A stretch of DNA of 64,000 bases. Source: Fodinicola acaciae (GTDB lineage Bacteria > Actinomycetota > Actinomycetes > Mycobacteriales > HKI-0501). Shown here piece by piece: positions 47,315 through 56,799 of the stretch. Both the position numbers and the translations under genes were made by a program. Position 1 is the stretch's first letter. Each line of letters opens with the position of its first letter. A model generated the notes under the pieces. It made no database searches. It saw only the letters and a program-made list of their open reading frames with translations, and was not told where the DNA came from. The DNA lies in the NCBI RefSeq assembly GCF_010993745.1, contig NZ_WOTN01000004.1, positions 1,054,001 through 1,118,000 on the forward strand. The letters run 5' to 3'.

Positions 47315-47660
47315 GGGTTGACCCTTTGCGCTCGAGGCGATACGGAAATCGCCGGGAAACGTGCCCCCGCACGAAGGTTTCACCGGATTATCGGCGGCGT
47401 TCCGCCGGACGTAACAGCGCTAAAAGCAAAGTGCCGGATCCGGCCAGTTTATTCACAGTGAAAAAGCGCTGCGTCGCAATGCGATTACGAATTCGGTCGG
47501 TCGGTGTCACGTCGCGCGGTCGGCCGGTTACCGGCTCCGGGGACCGGTCCCCGGACGTACGTGCACTATGCCGGATGGCATCAACCGGACAGTCCCGACT
47601 TTCCGTGCTTCCCGGACGGTAGGGAGGGTGGCACATCTGGACCCGCGCGAAAGGGCTGGC
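47315..47660. other. Divergent promoter region with 20-bp palindrome
   Basis: No supported gene in 346 bp between the CAP and beta-helix genes. At 47536-47555 lies TCCGGGGACCGGTCCCCGGA, a perfect 20-bp palindrome, which could be an operator or processed RNA hairpin. Otherwise nothing recognised. Confidence 0.5.
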
Positions 47661-48647
47661 ATGCATCGGATCCGATTCTGGTTGGCCGCGGCCGGCGGCA
47701 TTCTGCTCGTGCCGTCGATCGCGGTGAGTGCGCACGCGGACACGGTGACCGTACGCACCGCCGCCGAGCTGACCAGTGCGCTCGCCGCGGCCGCTCCCGG
47801 CCAGACCATCGAGCTGGCGGCCGGCACGTACGACGGCAGCTTCACCGCCACCGCGAAAGGCACCGCGAGCCAGCCGATCACGTTGACCGGCCCGCGCGAA
47901 GCGGTGCTGTCCAACCACGGCGGTTATGGCCTGCATCTGGACGGCGCCGCGTATTGGAAGCTCACCGGCTTCGCGGTTTCCGGCGCCAGCAAGGGGATCG
48001 TGCTGGACCACACCAACCACACCGTGCTGGACCGGCTGGCCGTGTCCAATGTGGACGCCGAGGCGATCCATCTGCGCGCGTCCAGCTCCGACAACACGAT
48101 CAGCGACTCTTCCGTACGCGACACCGGCCGCAAACAGCCACAGTTTGGCGAGGGGATCTATCTCGGCTCGGCGAAAAGCCACTGGGACGACTACGGCGAA
48201 AACGGTGGACCGGACCGCAGCGACCGTAACCAGGTCATCGGAAACCAGCTCGGGCCCAACATCCGCGCCGAGGCCATCGACATCAAGGAAGGCACCCAGG
48301 ACGGCGTCATCCGCGGCAACAGCTTCGACGGCCACGGCATCTCCGGCCAGAATTACGCGGATTCGTGGGTCGACGTGAAAGGCGGCGGATATCGGCTCGC
48401 CGACAACACCGGCACGTACGACGGCGACGGCGCGCTCGTCGACGGATTCCAGGTGCACCAACAGGTCAGCGGCATGGGCTGCGCGAACACCTTTGACGGC
48501 AACAAATCCGACCTCGGCGGCGCCAGCGGATACGCGATCGACGTGACCGACCAGAGCAAATGCGACCGGCCGAACGTCGTGCGGTCGACCAACACCGTAC
48601 GCGACGCCGGCTCCGGCCTCACCAACATCGACGTGACCGGGAGGTGA
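47661..48647 (+). CDS. Secreted right-handed beta-helix protein
   Basis: A 328-residue protein with a signal peptide (RIRFWLAAAGGILLVPSIAV, cleavage near AHA). It then reads as a parallel beta-helix of the pectate lyase-like type: TVRTAAELTSALAAAAPGQT, followed by repeated strands such as LDHTNHTVLDRLAVSNVDAE and IHLRASSSDNTISDSSVRDT. No catalytic Lys/Arg set of PL families can be assigned. ATG 47661 follows AAAGGG. The following gene encodes a second, diverged beta-helix protein 44 bp downstream. Confidence 0.75.
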   Translation: MHRIRFWLAAAGGILLVPSIAVSAHADTVTVRTAAELTSALAAAAPGQTIELAAGTYDGSFTATAKGTASQPITLTGPREAVLSNHGGYGLHLDGAAYWKLTGFAVSGASKGIVLDHTNHTVLDRLAVSNVDAEAIHLRASSSDNTISDSSVRDTGRKQPQFGEGIYLGSAKSHWDDYGENGGPDRSDRNQVIGNQLGPNIRAEAIDIKEGTQDGVIRGNSFDGHGISGQNYADSWVDVKGGGYRLADNTGTYDGDGALVDGFQVHQQVSGMGCANTFDGNKSDLGGASGYAIDVTDQSKCDRPNVVRSTNTVRDAGSGLTNIDVTGR

Positions 48648-48691
48648 TCCAGCCACTCTTCGACAGGCCAGATCCAGACGACCACGGGAGA

Positions 48692-49606
48692 ATGCTCAGA
48701 ATGCTACTGAAAAGAACGCTCGGCATCGCCGTCGCGGCGGTCGCGGTGCTCGGCTGTTCGCATCCGGCGAGTGCGACCAGTCCCGACACCAGGCCCGGTG
48801 CCCAACACGTGGCGGCGGCGAAATGTTCGTTGCGTACGACCGCGACGAGCGCGGCGCGCACGGCGCGGCCAGGCGATGTGGTGTGCCTGACCGACGCACG
48901 CAAGTCCAGCCGGCTGAAGATCACCAAGGGCGGCACGGCGGAAAAGCCGGTGGTGTATGACGGCGGCGGCACGACCCAGGTCGGCGGCATCGATGTCGAC
49001 GCCGATTACGTCGTGGTGCAGGGATATGTGATGAACCAGCCGTCCGCGCCCGGCGTACGGATGACCGGCAACAACGACACACTGCAGAACAACAAGATCG
49101 CCAAGCCGAAAGGCGGCGACGGTGACGGCATCCGGTTTTTCGGCGACCACGTGAAGATCCTGCACAACACGGTCAGCCAGACCGACAACAGCACCGGCGC
49201 GCACGCGGACTGCATGCAGACCTACCAAAGTGACACACCGTCCAGCTCCGACGTGACGATCGACGGCAACCGGTGCGAGAAAATCGACAACATGTGCATC
49301 ATGGCCGAAGGCCCCAACGACGGCGAAGGCGACGGCCAGGGCCACAGCGACCACTGGATGTTCAGCAACAACTTCTGTGAGACGCTGCAGGCCTCGCAGA
49401 ACGTCATGGTCGAGGACATCCAGTATCTGACGATCAACGGCAACGAGTTCACCGGCAACACCGACCACGCGATCGGGCTGGACATCGGCTCGACGTACGC
49501 GCATGTCGGCGACAACAAGGTCGATCCGTCGATCCACTGCTATGTCGGTGCCTCGAAGGACTCGATGAAGGGTTACCAGGGCCCCAAACCGGAGTGCCAG
49601 CCTTAG
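48692..49606 (+). CDS. Beta-helix lipoprotein
   Basis: A 304-residue protein with a probable lipobox AVLGC (Cys22) after a hydrophobic start. The mature part is a parallel beta-helix with many NNxI and DNxxxxA turns: GNNDTLQNNKIAKPKGGDGD, FFGDHVKILHNTVSQTDNST, VTIDGNRCEKIDNMCIM. Several Cys may form disulfides. ATG 48692 or 48701 could be used. It follows the other beta-helix gene by 44 bp and is likely co-transcribed. A GC hairpin ends the unit. Polysaccharide binding or cleavage is the usual role of such folds. Confidence 0.72.
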   Translation: MLRMLLKRTLGIAVAAVAVLGCSHPASATSPDTRPGAQHVAAAKCSLRTTATSAARTARPGDVVCLTDARKSSRLKITKGGTAEKPVVYDGGGTTQVGGIDVDADYVVVQGYVMNQPSAPGVRMTGNNDTLQNNKIAKPKGGDGDGIRFFGDHVKILHNTVSQTDNSTGAHADCMQTYQSDTPSSSDVTIDGNRCEKIDNMCIMAEGPNDGEGDGQGHSDHWMFSNNFCETLQASQNVMVEDIQYLTINGNEFTGNTDHAIGLDIGSTYAHVGDNKVDPSIHCYVGASKDSMKGYQGPKPECQP

Positions 49607-49652: not shown

Positions 49653-49790
49653 CACCTTGCGATTATCTCGGCGGCACCTTGCAAAGCCGCCGCTATATGG
49701 TGGTGACAAAGGAAAAAGCCTCGATCCGGCCTTGTCTGGCGGGTGAGCTGGACGTACGTTCGGCGGACCTGTCGACCGATGGAGGTTGCT

Positions 49791-49961
49791 ATGGAGGCAC
49801 TGCTCGAACTGGCTCCGCGGGACGCCGGCACCGATCCCGGTGAGCCGGACGTCGAGTTCCTGGAGGGCCGTTCGCTGCATGACATCGTCGCCTGCGAGGC
49901 GAGCTGTTATTGCACGTACGGCACGGATTACTGTCCGGCGACCGGACGGTCGAACTTCTGA
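49791..49961 (+). CDS. Putative lanthipeptide precursor
   Basis: A 56-residue peptide directly before a lanthipeptide synthetase gene (11-bp gap). ATG 49791 follows GGAGG by five bases. The N-terminal two-thirds is acidic and leader-like (LLELAPRDAGTDPGEPDVEF). The C-terminal core from about residue 35 reads CEASCYCTYGTDYCPATG followed by RSNF, with Cys 35, 39, 41 and 48 and Ser/Thr 38, 42, 45, 51 and 54. T42-x2-T45-x2-C48 fits the S/T-x2-S/T-x(2-5)-C pattern that class III enzymes turn into labionin. Four cysteines allow up to four rings. Position, composition and synthetase make the call strong; ring pattern and cleavage site are unknown. Confidence 0.82.
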   Translation: MEALLELAPRDAGTDPGEPDVEFLEGRSLHDIVACEASCYCTYGTDYCPATGRSNF

Positions 49962-49972
49962 CCGTCGACGCC

Positions 49973-52489
49973 ATGACCAGCGAGGACGTCGAGCTGGTGG
50001 TACGCAGCCTGGTGGCCGGTCACGGCCGCCAGGTGCGCGCCAGCTCGCTGTGGCTGCAGGTGTCCGGTGCCGATCCGGACGAGGTGAGGCCGCACGGTTG
50101 GAAGCTGCACGTTTCCGCGCGTGCGGCGGATTTCGCCGCGGTGGTGACCGAGGTCGTGCCATTGCTGCTGGACGCCGGTTGCGCGTTCAAGCTGGCTCGC
50201 TCGGTCGAGGTGCTGTCGCAGCTCAACGACGGAAATCCGACGCCGGCGCTGGTCGGCAAGGCGTTCACCGTCTATCCGGCGGAGCCGCTTTTCCGTCCAC
50301 TGGCGGAAAAACTCGCCGGTGTGCTGGGTGGCCGGCCGGCGCCCCGGGTGCTCAGCGACCGGCAGGTCGCCGCGGACGCTCCGGTGTATTACCGCTATGG
50401 TCCGTTTGCCAGCAACCTGAGCGCCGAGCCGGACGGCAAGGTCATCTCGGCCATCGTCGGACCGCACGGCGACCGGTTCGACGGCACCGCCGAGCTGACT
50501 TACCGACAGCCGTCGTGGGTCACCGACCCGTTCGGTGCCGACCCAGCGCCGCCGGACGAGCCGGTGATCCTCGGTCGGCGTTACCGGCCGGCGAAGGGGA
50601 TTTTCCAGTCGCCGCGCGGAAACGTCTACACGGCGTTCGACGAGTGGACCGGCGAGAAAGTCGTCGTTAAGCGGGCACGGGCGTACGTCGGAGAGACCGA
50701 CGCCGGCTATGACACACGTCTGCGACTGCGTAACGAGCGATACGTTCTGACCGCGCTGGCCGGCATCGCGGGGGTGCCGCGCTGCCTGGACCATTTCCGG
50801 CACGGCGACGACGAGTTTCTGGTCACCTCGTTCGGCGGCAAGTTCAACCTCGGCGAGGACATCGGCCGCCGCGGCCGCTATCGTCCGTCCACAGTGGACA
50901 GGCGTTCGCTGGACTCGCTGGCATGTCGCCTTGGCGGCATCATCGCGGCCGTGCACGATCGCGGCTTCGTCTCTCGCGATGTCTCACCGTCCAATGTGGT
51001 CGTCGACGACGAGACATACGACGTGACGCTGATCGATTTCGGCATCTGCCATCACGGCGACGTACGGATGCCTGGCGGCACACCAGGGATCGCACCGGCG
51101 CGGCAGTTCGCCGGCGAGCCGGCACATCCGGCCGACGACTGCCACGCGTTGGGGATGGTGCTGCTGCAGGCCGCGACCGGAGCGCCGGCGGCGACCGGCG
51201 GCGCGGATCCGGCGGCGCCGCGGCGGCACGCGCTGGAGATGATCGATCGCATCTATGGCACGGATCTTCCGCCGGCCATCGCGTACGTCGTCGGCCTGCT
51301 CTCCGACGATCCTGACGAGGCGGTGGCGACTTTACGGGCGATCGTTGAGAAAAAGCCGCCGCCGGTGGAGCCAGTCGCATGCGCGCCCACCTATGCACCG
51401 GATTTGCTTGATCGTACGCGCGAAAACGTCCTGGCCGCGATCGACGCGCGGCTGGCCGAGCCAGACGGATTCGTGGAGCCAAACGTCTATCGCGGCGTCA
51501 GCGGCGTCGGCCTGGAACTCCTGCACCACCTGGACAAACCAGGAGTCGCGGAGATGGTCCGGCGGCTGCAGGATTACTGCGCACAGAGTGCGACCCGGCT
51601 CGACCTGCCACCCGGGCTGCTGCTCGGGGCGACCGGCGTGCGGATTTTCCTTGAGCAAGCACGGATCTGTGGCAGTGACGGCCCGGTGCTGCCGGCCGAG
51701 ACCGCCGGTTGGCGGCCGAAAGGCGACGAGATCACCATCGGCGCCGCCGGCATCGGCCTCGGTCACCTCGTCCTCGACCGGCTCGCGCCGCATCCGGATC
51801 ACGAACGCGTCGTACGTGAGTCCGTCGAACGCGTGACGCGGCACCTCGATCCGGAGTCGGCGTTTGCGCCGGAGCAGGTGAGCGAGGAGTCCGGCATGGA
51901 CACGACGACCGGCTTCGCGCACGGCCTGTCCGGCGTCATCGCGCTGCTGCTGGCCGTGCGAGACACGGCACTTTGGTCGGAATCGCTGGAAAACCAGCTG
52001 GCTCGGCGGCTGGAGCTGGTGCGCGCGCGTACGACCCGGTTGATCGAGGTCTCGGCCATGGCGACCGCCGTGCCGCTGTCGGTTTCCTGGTGCCGCGGCC
52101 TCGCCGGCATCGGCCGTACGCTCTGGCTGGCCGGCCACAAGCTGGCCGATCGTGAGCTGGTGGAGCTGGCCGTCGCCGCCGGATCCGCCTGTGCCGACTG
52201 GGTCCCGTATCTGGCCAACCGCGGCCAATGCTGTGGCATCAGCGGCGTCGGCGAGTTTTTCCTCGACCTGGCCGAGGAAAACGAGCGCTTCGGTGCGGCG
52301 GCGGAGTCGGCGGCGACGCAGCTGGTCGTACGCGGGCTGGCCGATCCGCCGGCGAACGTCAAGGTCACCAGGCTCGGCGAACAGGACGGCGTGGCGTGGT
52401 CCGGCGGTATTTCCGGCCAGCTCGCGTTCTTACGGCGGCTGCGCGATCGCGGCACCGGAAACCCGATGGGACCGTTTCCGGCGCCGTGA
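49973..52489 (+). CDS. Class III/IV lanthipeptide synthetase (LanKC/LanL) with CCG cyclase motif
   Basis: An 838-residue three-domain enzyme. An N-terminal lyase-type domain has WKLHVSA (Lys44, His46) and AFKLARS, followed by VGKAFTVYP. A Ser/Thr kinase domain has Lys233 in KVVVKRA, FVSRDVSPSN (Asp336, Asn341) and DFG (Asp355). A LanC-like cyclase has GFAHGLSG, SWCRGLAG (Cys707) and QCCGISG (Cys753, Cys754). Together these phosphorylate Ser/Thr, eliminate phosphate and add Cys thiols. In most zinc-binding LanC domains the third ligand is His (CHG); here it is Cys, as reported for ProcM-like enzymes. Class III LanKC proteins generally lack zinc ligands, so this resembles class IV more. ATG 49973 starts 11 bp after the precursor stop; translation may be coupled. 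Confidence 0.85.
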   Translation: MTSEDVELVVRSLVAGHGRQVRASSLWLQVSGADPDEVRPHGWKLHVSARAADFAAVVTEVVPLLLDAGCAFKLARSVEVLSQLNDGNPTPALVGKAFTVYPAEPLFRPLAEKLAGVLGGRPAPRVLSDRQVAADAPVYYRYGPFASNLSAEPDGKVISAIVGPHGDRFDGTAELTYRQPSWVTDPFGADPAPPDEPVILGRRYRPAKGIFQSPRGNVYTAFDEWTGEKVVVKRARAYVGETDAGYDTRLRLRNERYVLTALAGIAGVPRCLDHFRHGDDEFLVTSFGGKFNLGEDIGRRGRYRPSTVDRRSLDSLACRLGGIIAAVHDRGFVSRDVSPSNVVVDDETYDVTLIDFGICHHGDVRMPGGTPGIAPARQFAGEPAHPADDCHALGMVLLQAATGAPAATGGADPAAPRRHALEMIDRIYGTDLPPAIAYVVGLLSDDPDEAVATLRAIVEKKPPPVEPVACAPTYAPDLLDRTRENVLAAIDARLAEPDGFVEPNVYRGVSGVGLELLHHLDKPGVAEMVRRLQDYCAQSATRLDLPPGLLLGATGVRIFLEQARICGSDGPVLPAETAGWRPKGDEITIGAAGIGLGHLVLDRLAPHPDHERVVRESVERVTRHLDPESAFAPEQVSEESGMDTTTGFAHGLSGVIALLLAVRDTALWSESLENQLARRLELVRARTTRLIEVSAMATAVPLSVSWCRGLAGIGRTLWLAGHKLADRELVELAVAAGSACADWVPYLANRGQCCGISGVGEFFLDLAEENERFGAAAESAATQLVVRGLADPPANVKVTRLGEQDGVAWSGGISGQLAFLRRLRDRGTGNPMGPFPAP

Positions 52490-53431
52490 TCACAGCCGGG
52501 AGACGCGGCGCTCCATCTCCGGGCCGAAGGTGCCGGCGCGCGACCGATCCAATGCGTCGGCGAAGTCTTCCTCGACCAGCTCGGCGTTGATGAAGGCGCC
52601 GGCCTGCGCGCCGGCGCTGGCGGCGCCGATCACCGTGGCCATCGGAGTGACGCTGTTGCCGGCGGCGAAAACGCCGAACTCGCTGGTGCGGCCGACGGCG
52701 TCGACGCGTACGACCCCGTTGTCGTCGGCAACGCAGCCGAGATCTTTCAGCAGCCGGTCGTTGGGCACCATTTTCGGCGCCACGAACAACGCCGAGCGCT
52801 CGACCGTACGACCGTCGGCCAGCTCGACAGCGGACAGCCGGTCGTCGGTGACCGCGACGCGTACGACCTTGCCGTCCACCACCTTCACGCCGCGAGCCGA
52901 AAGCTTCTCGCGGTCTTCCAGCGAAACCTCGGTGCCGTTGGAGAAGAAGACCAGGTCGGGGGACCATTGGCGGACCAGATACGCGTGGTGCAGCGAGCCG
53001 ATCACGCCGAGCGGCCGGTCGCGCACCTCGTAGCCGTGGCAGTAAGGACAGTGCAGCACGTCCCGGCCGAAGCGCTCGCGCAGCCCGGCGATGTCCGGCA
53101 GCACGTCGGTCAGGCCGGTGGCGACCAGCACGCGCCGCGCCTTCAGGACGCGCCCGTCGCCGAGCCGCACGTAGAAGCCGGCGTCGATGCCGGTCACCTC
53201 GCCGTCGATGATCTCACCGCCGTACGACTCGAGCTCCGCGCGTCCGGCGGCCAGCAGCTCGCGTGGCGGCATGCCGTCGCGCGACAGGAATCCGTGCATC
53301 GCCGTGGCCGGTGCGTTGCGGGGCTGGCCACCGTCGACCACCGCGATCCGCCGCCGCGCGCGTCCCAGCATGAGCGCCGCGTTGAGCCCCGCAGCGCCAC
53401 CGCCGACTATCACTACGTCGTAAACACTCAT
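52490..53431 (-). CDS. Thioredoxin reductase-like flavoprotein
   Basis: A 313-residue FAD/NAD(P) oxidoreductase: FAD motif VVIVGGGAAGLNAALMLGRA, redox pair in HCPYCHGYE, and C-terminal FGVFAAGNSVTPMATVIGAA. It resembles TrxB but its CxxC pair (CPYC) is followed by HGYE, as in the stand-alone thiol oxidoreductases next to regulatory genes. ATG 53431 follows GAGGAGG. It diverges from an XRE-cupin regulator and its stop abuts the lanthipeptide synthetase stop. A role with the peptide is only possible, as the genes are convergent. Confidence 0.85.
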   Translation of the reverse strand: MSVYDVVIVGGGAAGLNAALMLGRARRRIAVVDGGQPRNAPATAMHGFLSRDGMPPRELLAAGRAELESYGGEIIDGEVTGIDAGFYVRLGDGRVLKARRVLVATGLTDVLPDIAGLRERFGRDVLHCPYCHGYEVRDRPLGVIGSLHHAYLVRQWSPDLVFFSNGTEVSLEDREKLSARGVKVVDGKVVRVAVTDDRLSAVELADGRTVERSALFVAPKMVPNDRLLKDLGCVADDNGVVRVDAVGRTSEFGVFAAGNSVTPMATVIGAASAGAQAGAFINAELVEEDFADALDRSRAGTFGPEMERRVSRL

Positions 53432-53478
53432 CGTTTCCTCCTCTGTGCTGGCGAGGATGCACGCGTCGTACACCCCTT

Positions 53479-53514: not shown

Positions 53515-54099
53515 ATGGACGCAACCGTCGAGAACGCGTTGGCCGAGGTCGGCGGCCGGTTGAAGCGCGTACGCATGGAGCGCGGCGTCACGCTGGCCGC
53601 GCTGTCGGAGGCCACCGGCATCTCCAAGAGCACGCTGTCGCGGCTGGAGGGCGGCCAGCGCAAACCCAGCCTGGAGCTGCTGCTGCCGATCGCGCAGGCA
53701 CACCAGGTGCCGCTCGACGAGCTGGTCGGCGCGCCGGAGGTCGGCGACCCGCGGATCCGGATGGTGCCGCGCAAGTTGCCGCACATGACCGTCGTGCCGC
53801 TGACCCGCCAGCCGGGCGGCCTCCAGGCATACAAGATGATCCTGCCGGCTCGCCGGGAGCCGCCGGAGCTGATGACGCACGAGGGCTATGAGTGGTTCTA
53901 TGTGCTGTCCGGCCGGGTACGGCTCCGGCTGGCCGACCACGACCTGGAGCTCGGCACCGGCGAGGCGGCCGAGTTCGACTGCCGGCTGCCGCACTGGTTC
54001 GGCGGCGCTGGCGGTGCCGCCGAGGTGCTCAGCCTGTTTGGTCCGCAGGGGGAGCGGATGCACGTACGCGCGCGTTCGAAGGCGCGCGACGCTCGATGA
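53515..54099 (+). CDS. XRE-family regulator with C-terminal cupin
   Basis: The 194-residue protein joins an N-terminal XRE helix-turn-helix (VTLAALSEATGISKSTLSRL and EGGQRKPSLELLLPIA) to a cupin domain (MTHEGYEWFYVLSGRVRLRL). Such regulators use the cupin to sense a small ligand. It diverges from the thioredoxin reductase-like gene, its probable target. The last 71 bp overlap the convergent ArsR-GNAT gene. Confidence 0.87.
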   Translation: MDATVENALAEVGGRLKRVRMERGVTLAALSEATGISKSTLSRLEGGQRKPSLELLLPIAQAHQVPLDELVGAPEVGDPRIRMVPRKLPHMTVVPLTRQPGGLQAYKMILPARREPPELMTHEGYEWFYVLSGRVRLRLADHDLELGTGEAAEFDCRLPHWFGGAGGAAEVLSLFGPQGERMHVRARSKARDAR

Positions 54100-54835
54100 A
54101 GACCGTGTCGTGCCAGCGGCCGTTGAGCCGCGCGATCCGCTCGCGGATGCCGACCGTACGGAACCCGGCCGCGTGGTGCAGGGCCAGGCTTGCCGTGTTT
54201 TCCGCGAAGATCGCCGACTGCAGCGTCCAGATGCCGGCCGCGTCGGCGCCGCTGACCTGCTGGTGGAGCAGCGCCTTGCCGACGCCACGGCCGCGCATGC
54301 CGTCGGCGATGTAGACCGAGGTCTCGGCGACGCCGGCATAGCACGGCCGGCTCGACGCCGCGGTGAGCGCGGCCCAGCCGGCGACGGCGCCGTCGACCTC
54401 GGCGACCCAGCGCTGGTCCGGCAGCCACTTCGCGTCGAGCGCCGCGCGGCTGGGCACGTCCGTCTCGAAGGTGGCCAGTCCAGTGGCGATGCCTTCGGCG
54501 TAGATCCGCCGCACGTCCGGCCAGTCCCGCGGAAGCAACGGGCGTACGTTCACGTCGTCAGGAAGCCGCAGCGGTTTCGCCGTCGTGGTCGTGACCTGGG
54601 GAAAGCCGCGACGACAGACGACGCTTTCGTTGTGCAGGCCCACAAAACCGACGTCCGCGAGCGTACGCAGGTGGCCGGCGCAGGCCGCCGGACCGATGCC
54701 GAGCTCGTCGGCCAGAGCCTCGACGGTCGTCTCACCGCTCGCCGCGACCGAGTGCAGCAGCCGGACGCGCGTGGCGTCGGCGAGCGCGCCGAACGACGCC
54801 GCGTACGCGTCGGCGTTTTCCTGTGACAGCGCCAT
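54029..54835 (-). CDS. ArsR-type HTH fused to GNAT acetyltransferase
   Basis: A 268-residue two-domain protein. Residues 1-80 form an ArsR-like winged helix (ALADATRVRLLHSVAASGET and TTVEALADELGIGPAACAGH). Residues 92-255 form a GNAT domain like phosphinothricin/arsinothricin acetyltransferases: VRPLLPRDWPDVRRIYAEGI, ETSVYIADGMRGRGVGKALL, HHAAGFRTVGIRERIARLNG. The HTH lacks the ArsR metal-binding cysteines. The fusion would couple drug acetylation with DNA binding. The C-terminal 20 residues overlap the XRE-cupin gene. Confidence 0.8.
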   Translation of the reverse strand: MALSQENADAYAASFGALADATRVRLLHSVAASGETTVEALADELGIGPAACAGHLRTLADVGFVGLHNESVVCRRGFPQVTTTTAKPLRLPDDVNVRPLLPRDWPDVRRIYAEGIATGLATFETDVPSRAALDAKWLPDQRWVAEVDGAVAGWAALTAASSRPCYAGVAETSVYIADGMRGRGVGKALLHQQVSGADAAGIWTLQSAIFAENTASLALHHAAGFRTVGIRERIARLNGRWHDTVFIERRAPSNARVRASAPPADQTG

Positions 54836-54842
54836 AACGGCA

Positions 54843-55217
54843 TCATCGCAGGGTTTCGGCGAGCACCTTCCGCTGTGTTGTCTTGGCCACGTCGTAGCGC
54901 GCGCGGCCGGCGTCGGTCATCCGCACGAAGATCGCCCGACGGTCGTTTTCGCAGACCGTACGTTCGACCAGGCCGTCGCGCTCCAGCCGGGCGATCAGCC
55001 GGGACGCCGCGCTCTGGCTGAGCGGCAGCAGGTCGACGAGCTGCTGGCCGCGGCACTGGTCGCCGATCTCCATCAGCCGGTCGAGCGCCTCGAACTCGCT
55101 CAACCCGAGCCCGTGCTCCTCCTGCAGCGCACGCTCGATGGCGCAGCTGACCTGCGCGTACCGCACCTGCAGCGCACGCCATTCGATGACGAGCGGCTCG
55201 GCTGTCTCCACGGACAT
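54843..55217 (-). CDS. MarR-family regulator of the adjacent MFS exporter
   Basis: A 124-residue winged-helix regulator. FEALDRLMEIGDQCRGQQLV, DLLPLSQSAASRLIARLERD and GLVERTVCENDRRAIFVRMT contain the MarR HTH and wing. It diverges from an MFS gene with an AT-rich, palindrome-bearing gap between them, so it probably represses that exporter. ATG 55217 gives the usual length; the open frame further upstream is unlikely to be coding. Confidence 0.85.
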   Translation of the reverse strand: MSVETAEPLVIEWRALQVRYAQVSCAIERALQEEHGLGLSEFEALDRLMEIGDQCRGQQLVDLLPLSQSAASRLIARLERDGLVERTVCENDRRAIFVRMTDAGRARYDVAKTTQRKVLAETLR

Positions 55218-55231
55218 GGCCGCGATACTAA

Positions 55232-55297
55232 CACATGCATGTGCATTAGATGCATCACCATTAAATGCGTTGGCATCATATGTGTGTGCATGTAATC
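55232..55297. promoter_or_regulatory. Probable MarR operator region
   Basis: The 88-bp gap between MarR and MFS genes is the most AT-rich stretch nearby. It holds the perfect palindrome CACATGCATGTG (55232-55243) and a second GTGTGCATGTA element near 55285, with several ATGCAT-like repeats between them. The MFS start follows within ten bases, so transcription may be leaderless. Confidence 0.5.
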
Positions 55298-55305
55298 TCG
55301 TCCGA

Positions 55306-56799
55306 GTGACAACACTAGAGACCAATACTCGGCGGTGGGACGCGCGGCTCTGGGGTGTGCTGCTGGTCGTCTGCACCGTGGTCGCTCTCGACGCGCTCGA
55401 CGTCTCGATGGTCGGCGTCGCACTGCCGGCGATCCGCGCCGACCTCGGCATGTCCACCTCCTCTTTGCAATGGGTCGTCAGCGGTTACGTCCTCGGCTAC
55501 GGCGGTCTGCTGCTGCTCGGTGGCCGCGCCGCTGACCTGCTCGGACGCCGTCGCGTACTGTTGATCGCCCTCGGTGTCTTCACCGCCGCGTCGCTGCTCG
55601 GCGGCCTGGTCAGCGACGGCACACTGCTGATCGCGGCCCGGTTCATCAAAGGCATGGCGGCCGCGTTCACCGCGCCGGCCGCGCTGTCCATCGTCACTAC
55701 GACCTTTCCGGAAGGCCACGCGCGCAACCGCGCGTTGAGCATCTTCGGTGTGTTCGGCGCGAGCGGCTATTCGCTCGGCCTGGTCTTCTCCGGCCTGATG
55801 ACGCAGGTCGGCTGGCGGTGGACCTTCCTGCTGCCGGTGCCGATCGCGCTGGCCACCTTGTACGCCGCCTACCGGCTGGTGCCGCGGACCGCGCGGCCGG
55901 CGCGTACCGGTCAGGGCTATGACGTGGTCGGGGCCGTGCTCGGCGTCGCCGCGTCGATGCTGCTGGTGTTCACGGTGGTGAGCGCGCCGGAGGCCGGCTG
56001 GGCCTCGGTGCGTACGATCGGCGGCCTCGTTCTGTCGGTGGCGCTGGCGGTCACCTTCGTCGTGGTCGAGCGGCGCAGCCCGCATCCGTTGCTGCGGCTC
56101 GGCATCCTGCGCGCCGGTGCGTTGCGGCGCGCCAACCTCGGCGTGATCGCGTTCTTCGGCGGCTACATCAGCTTCCAGTTCGTGGTGATGCTCTATCTGC
56201 AGTCCGTACGGCAGTGGTCGCCACTGCAGACCGCGCTGGCCTTCCTGCCGGCGGCGCTGATCGTGGCCTTCGGGTCGCCGCGTACGGCCTGGATCGTCGA
56301 CCGCGTCGGCACCGCGCCGACCATCGCGGCCGGTGTGCTCGCGCACGTCGCCGGCTATCTGCTGTTCTTCGACGTGGGGATCGACAGCAACTACTTCACG
56401 ACCGTGCTGCCGAGCATGCTGCTGCTCGGAGTCGGCTTCATGCTCGCGTTCCCGGCCTTCAACATCCAGGCCACCTCCGGCATCTCGGACGACGAGCAGG
56501 GTCTGGCCGGCGGCCTGCTCAACACGTCGGTGCAGGTCGGCGGTGCCGTCGTACTCGCCATCGTGACCGCGGTGGTGACCGCCAGCGGTGGCGCACAGGC
56601 CTCGGCGGCGGCTCTGCTCGCCGGTTTCCGGCCGGCGTTGTACGTCGTCACCGGCGTGTCGGTCCTGGGTCTCGCGGTCGCGGTGATGGGCCTGGTCGCG
56701 CACCGGCGAGCGGTGGTCGCTCGGCGCCGCGCCGGCAGTCGCGTACTGGCGACCGGAGGCGCTCAGACCGCCGACCCCACCTATGCCAACGCGGAGTAG
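55306..56799 (+). CDS. MFS exporter, DHA2 (14-TM) family
   Basis: A 497-residue transporter with about fourteen helices. Motif A-like GGRAADLLGRRRVLLIALGV after helix 2, the TM1 motif ALDALDVSMVGVALPAIRAD, and motif C-like GASGYSLGLVFSGLM place it with DHA2 drug exporters. The following cupin gene lies 26 bp downstream, probably in the same unit. GTG 55306 is used because the transporter starts there. Probably controlled by the divergent MarR. Confidence 0.88.
   Translation: MTTLETNTRRWDARLWGVLLVVCTVVALDALDVSMVGVALPAIRADLGMSTSSLQWVVSGYVLGYGGLLLLGGRAADLLGRRRVLLIALGVFTAASLLGGLVSDGTLLIAARFIKGMAAAFTAPAALSIVTTTFPEGHARNRALSIFGVFGASGYSLGLVFSGLMTQVGWRWTFLLPVPIALATLYAAYRLVPRTARPARTGQGYDVVGAVLGVAASMLLVFTVVSAPEAGWASVRTIGGLVLSVALAVTFVVVERRSPHPLLRLGILRAGALRRANLGVIAFFGGYISFQFVVMLYLQSVRQWSPLQTALAFLPAALIVAFGSPRTAWIVDRVGTAPTIAAGVLAHVAGYLLFFDVGIDSNYFTTVLPSMLLLGVGFMLAFPAFNIQATSGISDDEQGLAGGLLNTSVQVGGAVVLAIVTAVVTASGGAQASAAALLAGFRPALYVVTGVSVLGLAVAVMGLVAHRRAVVARRRAGSRVLATGGAQTADPTYANAE

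Follow-up and report, generated by a model that had tools for sequence, protein, structure and literature searches.

RESULTS

Gene and domain layout of the locus

In the window, by which we mean the whole 64,000-nucleotide stretch of Fodinicola acaciae DNA that was analysed, an open reading frame on the forward strand (lanL, 49973..52489) encodes a protein of 838 residues that we assign, based on this frame, NCBIfam and Pfam matches, phylogenetic trees, and a structural model, to the CCG (CuvL) clade of class IV lanthipeptide synthetases. According to Pfam, the chain carries RamC_N at residues 16-193, followed by Pkinase at 216-409 and LANC_like at 582-771. These correspond, all on the forward strand, to a lyase domain at 50018..50551 (PF25816, 144 bits), a kinase domain of about residues 202-460 at 50576..51352, to which kinase structures align over about residues 192-464, and a LanC-like cyclase domain of about residues 480-838 at 51410..52486. 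A profile of residues 470-838 matches CuvL, GCR2, LanCL1/2, and NisC. Residue counts over the clade indicated that Lys44, His46, Lys73, Lys96, Asp129, and Arg141 of the lyase and Lys233, Asp336, Asn341, and Asp355 of the kinase, which we take to be the catalytic residues of these families, are conserved clade-wide, and all are present in the window protein.

The best NCBIfam model for the synthetase was that of class IV LanL, with 598.9 bits over residues 20-827, while the class III model scored 292.7 bits, half of that value. The class IV score lies below the 650-bit cut-off of the LanL model NF038150, but since other members of the CCG clade (L060, L061, L062, and L063) pass it, this cut-off appears to reflect how the model was curated more than what defines the class. 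The layout is that expected of a class IV LanL, with lyase, Ser/Thr kinase, and LanC-like domain on one chain. Pfam detected no class II dehydratase domain in the synthetase, the feature by which a ProcM-like LanM would be recognised, and the match to TIGR03897 is confined to the cyclase end (43 of 304 bits). An AlphaFold2 model of the full synthetase (mean pLDDT 87.1, pTM 0.88) had CuvL (8CAR) as its closest fold match (Z 42.7, rmsd 5.7, 781 residues); next came GCR2, over the cyclase part, with Z 32.5, and then ThurKC with Z 28.5. Judged by sequence, the synthetase is a class IV LanL rather than a class III enzyme.

The 56-residue precursor is encoded immediately upstream by lanA (49791..49961, forward strand), recognised from its open reading frame, a Shine-Dalgarno-like site, and the leader profile described below. 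GGAGG lies at 49781-49785, five bases before the ATG at 49791, and the lanA stop is 11 bases before the synthetase ATG, making this a compact locus. The leader begins MEALLELAPRDAG, and the core, with four cysteines, is ACEASCYCTYGTDYCPATGRSNF. Both the position of lanA and its leader motif recur in the loci of relatives. Leaders of the clade share a PRxxG or RDAG-like motif, while the cores are of several unlike types; the pattern C-x2-[ST]-C-x(1,2)-C-x(6,7)-C-x2-T-G-x-[ST] is common to seven loci, the window among them (L009, L029, L031, L032, L035, L083, and L086).

Precursor number in the clade

The number of potential substrates was assessed using a leader profile built from the precursors of the window and its relatives, lanA included; because it was built from these precursors, very different leaders would escape detection. 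In the organism's own genome lanA was the only significant match (E 7.5e-21; next E 0.57), and a protein search of the same genome yielded no second precursor (next match E 1.24). The profile was also applied to 12 of 14 other clade genomes (all but G329 and G518), and found one precursor in each, or two in the case of G376, upstream of the synthetase. Of the 13 matches, three (G238, G353, and G480) sit within extended open frames, and E values are less significant, at 1e-7 to 2e-6, for G480, G577, and G741. Fan-out of the ProcM-like kind was thus not seen for this leader family in the own genome and the 12 others, and with one precursor, once two, per genome, the all-Cys site occurs here without substrate fan-out, within the reach of the leader profile.

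A separate motif scan, within the starts and lengths it allowed, returned no precursor in 17 of 62 clade loci (L036, L066, L075, L079, L080, L081, L091, L092, L093, L101, L105, L108, L111, L112, L113, L116, and L117), and some of its matches elsewhere are plainly spurious frames. In the genome of L066 (G480), the leader profile did find a precursor. In L149, from Actinomadura macrotermitis, we observed a 1350-residue frame and a precursor whose core is apparently tandemly duplicated.

Zinc-site residues of the cyclase

SWCRG occupies residues 705-709 and QCCGIS residues 752-757 of the synthetase, placing the predicted first zinc ligand at Cys707 (codon 52091..52093, forward strand) and the predicted second and third at Cys753-Cys754 (52229..52234, forward strand). 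The initial annotation had located these cysteines at the same residues, described a lyase-kinase-cyclase protein, and referred to a 56-residue precursor, and the translated frame, the Pfam domain order, and the lanA frame with its upstream GGAGG agree with it on all three points. When a profile of 22 clade cyclase domains is aligned with three proteins of known structure, LanCL1, LanCL2, and Arabidopsis GCR2, these have CHG where the clade has CCG and WCHG where it has WC[RQ]G; NisC was matched as well (E 6.7e-06). This column match implies that Cys754 occupies the His-ligand position of LanC-type cyclases, as the initial annotation required, with the three cysteines at canonical zinc positions. 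All three ligand columns are therefore filled, unlike in class III, the third by Cys and not His. From the alignment we infer that Cys707, Cys753, and Cys754 bind zinc.

Two further positions of the cyclase stand out. His650 (51920..51922, forward strand), the conserved His of the AHG motif, is kept in 57 of 59 clade proteins. Glu586 (51728..51730, forward strand), identified by residue counts and motif, stands where the D[VIL]xxGxAG motif has its conserved Asp and is directly preceded by Asp585; among the 59 clade proteins with readable columns (from a set including the best 80 of 580 contig loci), 57 have Asp here, L081 has Gly, and the window protein has the sole Glu. The conserved Asp at this position presumably equates to Asp141 of NisC, judging by the motif.

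CCG is the rule in one branch of LanL proteins

To place the motif, we compared 128 distinct sequences of class III/IV proteins, a number of which are fragmentary. They came from genome searches and from 80 contig loci, the best of 580 matches in a scan of genome contigs with the clade alignment; the counts are thus no census and are biased towards relatives of the window. A scan of genome contigs with the single protein had found no relative. Bit scores against the window protein fall into two sets, separated by a gap between 234 and 298 bits. The initial annotation had expected CCG to be uncommon among close class III/IV relatives, but in this collection (loci including the best 80 of 580) the upper set has Cys at 707, 753, and 754 in 58 of 59 readable proteins, the window protein included, whereas the lower set has Cys753 with His754 in 57 of 61 class III/IV proteins. 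The same collection, again with loci drawn from the best 80 of 580, shows a parallel split directly behind the first zinc Cys: 58 of 59 clade proteins have Arg or Gln there, and 58 of 61 proteins outside the clade have His, Ser, or Asn. The C[RQ]G...CCG signature of the CuvL branch is thereby present in the window protein, and the occurrence of the all-Cys triad in 58 clade proteins indicates that it is not due to chance. The triad counts are without the clade sequences L108 and L010 and, among the others, L015, L045, and L071-L074 (these last four class III), whose columns lack residues. The one exception in the clade, L036, has lost the zinc ligands (TWWEG, QSHG) and has Arg at the AHG His. 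The genera represented among clade members of named origin include Nocardia, Planosporangium, Nonomuraea, Actinoallomurus, Saccharopolyspora, Streptomyces, Kitasatospora, Actinomadura, Catenulispora, Embleya, Glycomyces, and Labedaea. As far as sequences go, CCG is the normal state of one actinobacterial LanL branch and not peculiar to the window protein.

A relative of the synthetase from the same genus (G001) is split over three frames (L172, 8241-10761) in a draft genome that is 74% complete, which reflects either a sequencing error or a pseudogene. L015 is a piece of this relative, and its cyclase frame reads SWCQG and QCCG; the precursor core in G001 differs from that of the window and has a CC pair.

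Cyclase phylogeny

A maximum-likelihood tree was inferred from 76 cyclase domains, comprising 63 hand-picked class III/IV rows of the 128 and 13 LanM rows, 10 of which came from the 60 records listed of 183 matches and 3 from another search (the LanM record L158, with its cyclase end absent, was excluded). The 28 CCG LanL rows, among them L036 with its lost ligands, clustered together (100/100) in the LanL/LanKC part of the tree. The 13 LanM rows made up a separate group (100/100), within which four CCG LanMs, one from Nostoc and three from haloarchaea, were nested. The suggestion in the initial annotation that the enzyme belongs to a distinct clade was thus upheld by the cyclase phylogeny, while a grouping with the LanM rows, as a mixed type would have predicted, was not recovered. 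Six class III rows clustered with one another (100/96), apart from the CCG clade. Among the rows assigned as IV_CHG, L038 and L065 are without CHG and L064, L067, and L068 lie beside LanM; the tree needs three changes for this category, and IV_CHG is therefore not one clade. Two cyanobacterial LanM rows grouped as CHG, L165 and L166, read CWG and MWG.

A second tree, with 54 rows, places CuvL inside the CCG group (100/100), next to Actinomadura sp. DC4 (L119). The window protein sits in a different subbranch, together with the sequence from Nocardia panacis (100/99). Rooting was by midpoint only, and the split nearest the root of the second tree is weak (47/76). The separate grouping of CCG LanL and CCG LanM proteins is most simply read as a separate origin of CCG in each family. 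Most simply, these sequences would be explained by an in-place change of His to Cys, fixed at the base of the LanL branch and separate from that of ProcM-like LanM.

Neighbouring genes and other lanthipeptide synthetases of the genome

In the annotated part of the window, no dedicated transporter or protease was recognised beside the synthetase. The nearest transporter noticed, an MFS efflux gene at 55138-56799, was considered as a cluster partner and dropped, MFS relatives being found in four other loci at scattered distances. On the reverse strand, a thioredoxin-reductase-like flavoprotein (52490-53473) has its stop touching that of the synthetase, and upstream on the forward strand two successive right-handed beta-helix proteins with weak NosD-like matches are encoded by overlapping frames (47568-48647 and 48560-49606). 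The flavoprotein, the two beta-helix genes, and a cupin-HTH gene were likewise dropped as partners, as they are without counterpart in 63 other clade loci (three of them repeats; flanks of about 1.5 kb for loci from the genome searches and up to 10 kb for the rest), the sole match being one of 26% identity to the HTH gene in L106; tblastn found no counterparts of these genes in 20 kb around the G001 relative. Clustering of clade neighbours produced many spurious GC-rich frames. The window also holds a fusion of an ArsR-type HTH with GNAT (54029-54835, reverse strand) resembling ArsN1 family A (arsinothricin N-acetyltransferase; 138 bits, cut-off 170).

Elsewhere in the clade, an ABC transporter gene lies upstream of the synthetase in nine loci of one subbranch (L082, L085, L087-L089, L093-L095, and L097), and a MauE-type gene in eight of these nine, not L094. 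For both assignments one representative was scanned, and looked real. The own genome (G000) also encodes a CHG LanL (C1:304320-306926, 1034 bits) and a CHG class II LanM (C2:2241156-2243771).

DISCUSSION

Proposed function and alternatives

We consider it very probable that the window holds a two-gene lanthipeptide locus, in which a 56-residue precursor is paired with a class IV synthetase of the CuvL branch that works as outlined here and whose CCG stems from an in-place His-to-Cys change. By analogy, the synthetase probably ties small sulphur rings into the peptide encoded just upstream. The order of steps is borrowed from LanL and LanKC enzymes, for which the accessible text of earlier work gives kinase, lyase, and zinc-assisted thiol addition (PMC2843593, PMC10604976). 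The leader of LanA would dock on the synthetase, the kinase domain would phosphorylate Ser/Thr of the core, and the RamC_N lyase would strip the phosphate to leave Dha/Dhb. The LanC-like domain, with zinc on Cys707/Cys753/Cys754, would then activate the thiols of core cysteines, which add to Dha/Dhb in a Michael reaction; His650 and Glu586/Asp585 would be the likely acid-base residues. With four cysteines in the core, up to four thioether rings are possible.

The initial annotation raised the idea of a mixed type. Spelled out, this would be a class III/IV lyase-kinase fused to a cyclase from a ProcM-like CCG LanM, with low selectivity and many substrates. The three-Cys ligand set is indeed the same as in ProcM-like LanM, but the cyclase groups with LanL/LanKC, apart from the LanM rows and the CCG LanMs among them, the synthetase fits the LanL model at twice the bits of the class III model, and a single precursor of the leader family is present in the own genome, with one, or once two, in the 12 others; we regard this reading as most improbable. 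There is also very little chance that the protein is a class III (LanKC) enzyme that has kept or regained its zinc ligands and makes labionin. Such an enzyme would have the same domain order, and the sequence is compatible with labionin formation by a class IV-like enzyme, but the halved class III score and the separate grouping of the six class III rows argue against it, and by eye the core is without S-x2-S-x(2-5)-C, which we take to be the labionin motif.

A different concern is that the synthetase might be decaying or non-functional, its divergence and Glu586 reflecting relaxed selection. The uniqueness of Glu586 among the 59 clade proteins would fit this, as would the three frames of the same-genus relative, albeit in a draft genome, and the loss of zinc ligands in L036 of the same clade. 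However, the 838-residue frame is intact, the zinc, kinase, and lyase residues are all kept, and the adjacent precursor is intact, with a core pattern common to six other loci, and we accordingly consider decay highly unlikely. The reading that we retain is the two-gene locus with a class IV synthetase; what speaks against it is the LanL score below the cut-off, the departure of Glu586 from the conserved Asp, and that no dedicated transporter or protease was recognised beside the synthetase in the annotated part of the window.

Implications of an all-Cys site in LanL

It is possible, although we hold this only tentatively and think it somewhat less likely than the contrary, that CCC had one origin in LanM and another at the root of a widespread actinobacterial LanL branch, in LanL with a second-shell swap (His/Ser/Asn to Arg/Gln behind the first Cys) and without fan-out. 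If this is true, tris-thiolate zinc would serve faster or reversible thiol addition for particular rings and not promiscuity as such, nature would already have tested its role on the diverse cores that follow a common leader motif, and the subbranch of the window would make a new ring pattern from its C-x2-[ST]-C-x(1,2)-C-x(6,7)-C-x2-T-G-x-[ST] core. A further lineage has CCG but, as far as examined here, only one or two precursors for each enzyme, so that CCG and promiscuity are separable, and an enzyme related to one of known structure is available for testing the effect of the third Cys. The clade offers many cores, on which no report was found in the literature searched; taken alone, the window locus is one more unstudied member of it.

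Comparison with known systems

The abstract of the 2023 report on curvocidin by Sigurdsson and colleagues reportedly describes tricyclic lanthipeptides of class IV that form a new clade. The window protein belongs to the same clade (100/100) as the curvocidin synthetase, CuvL, and CuvL is its closest solved structure. The two proteins match over their full length (423 bits, 31-33% identity), with the same three domains and with SxCxG and QCCG in both, and differ in subbranch, CuvL standing beside Actinomadura sp. DC4, whose precursor core is unlike that of the window. Structures of CuvL are available as PDB 8CAR and 8CAV (Sigurdsson et al. 2023, doi 10.1002/anie.202302490).

Classical CHG LanL proteins such as VenL, as described in the accessible portion of PMC2843593, share the lyase-kinase-LanC layout, the conserved catalytic residues, and the zinc columns with the window protein, which differs by Cys for His at 754; the CCG clade further has Arg/Gln in place of their His/Ser/Asn after the first zinc Cys. 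The ProcM-like CCG LanMs have three Cys at the ligand positions, as in the window protein, but their dehydratase is unrelated and their cyclase falls in a separate tree group. The link between CCG and promiscuity is known from LanM (PMC10027976 and PMC12328550, in the text accessible), and the substrate fan-out of these enzymes was not seen for the leader family of the window.

The initial annotation presented a CCG site in such an enzyme as potentially novel, which does not hold in view of the solved CuvL and of a 2024 survey (PMC11251773). In its accessible text, this survey tabulates an L-CCC class (lyase dehydratase with Cys-Cys-Cys cyclase) of 8 predicted peptides, and its phylogeny resolves bacterial CCC enzymes into three independent subclades with a different dehydratase in each. 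The window protein, with its lyase-type dehydratase and CCC cyclase triad, falls under this definition, and the 8 L-CCC peptides likely belong to the CCG LanL clade described here. Among the literature matches listed, and within the text accessible, a lyase-type synthetase was joined with CCC only in that survey. Both the lyase-CCC idea and the separate origin of CCC are already in print there (PMC11251773). What the window adds is a divergent clade member with its own core pattern and Glu586, of a kind already represented in print and in the PDB.
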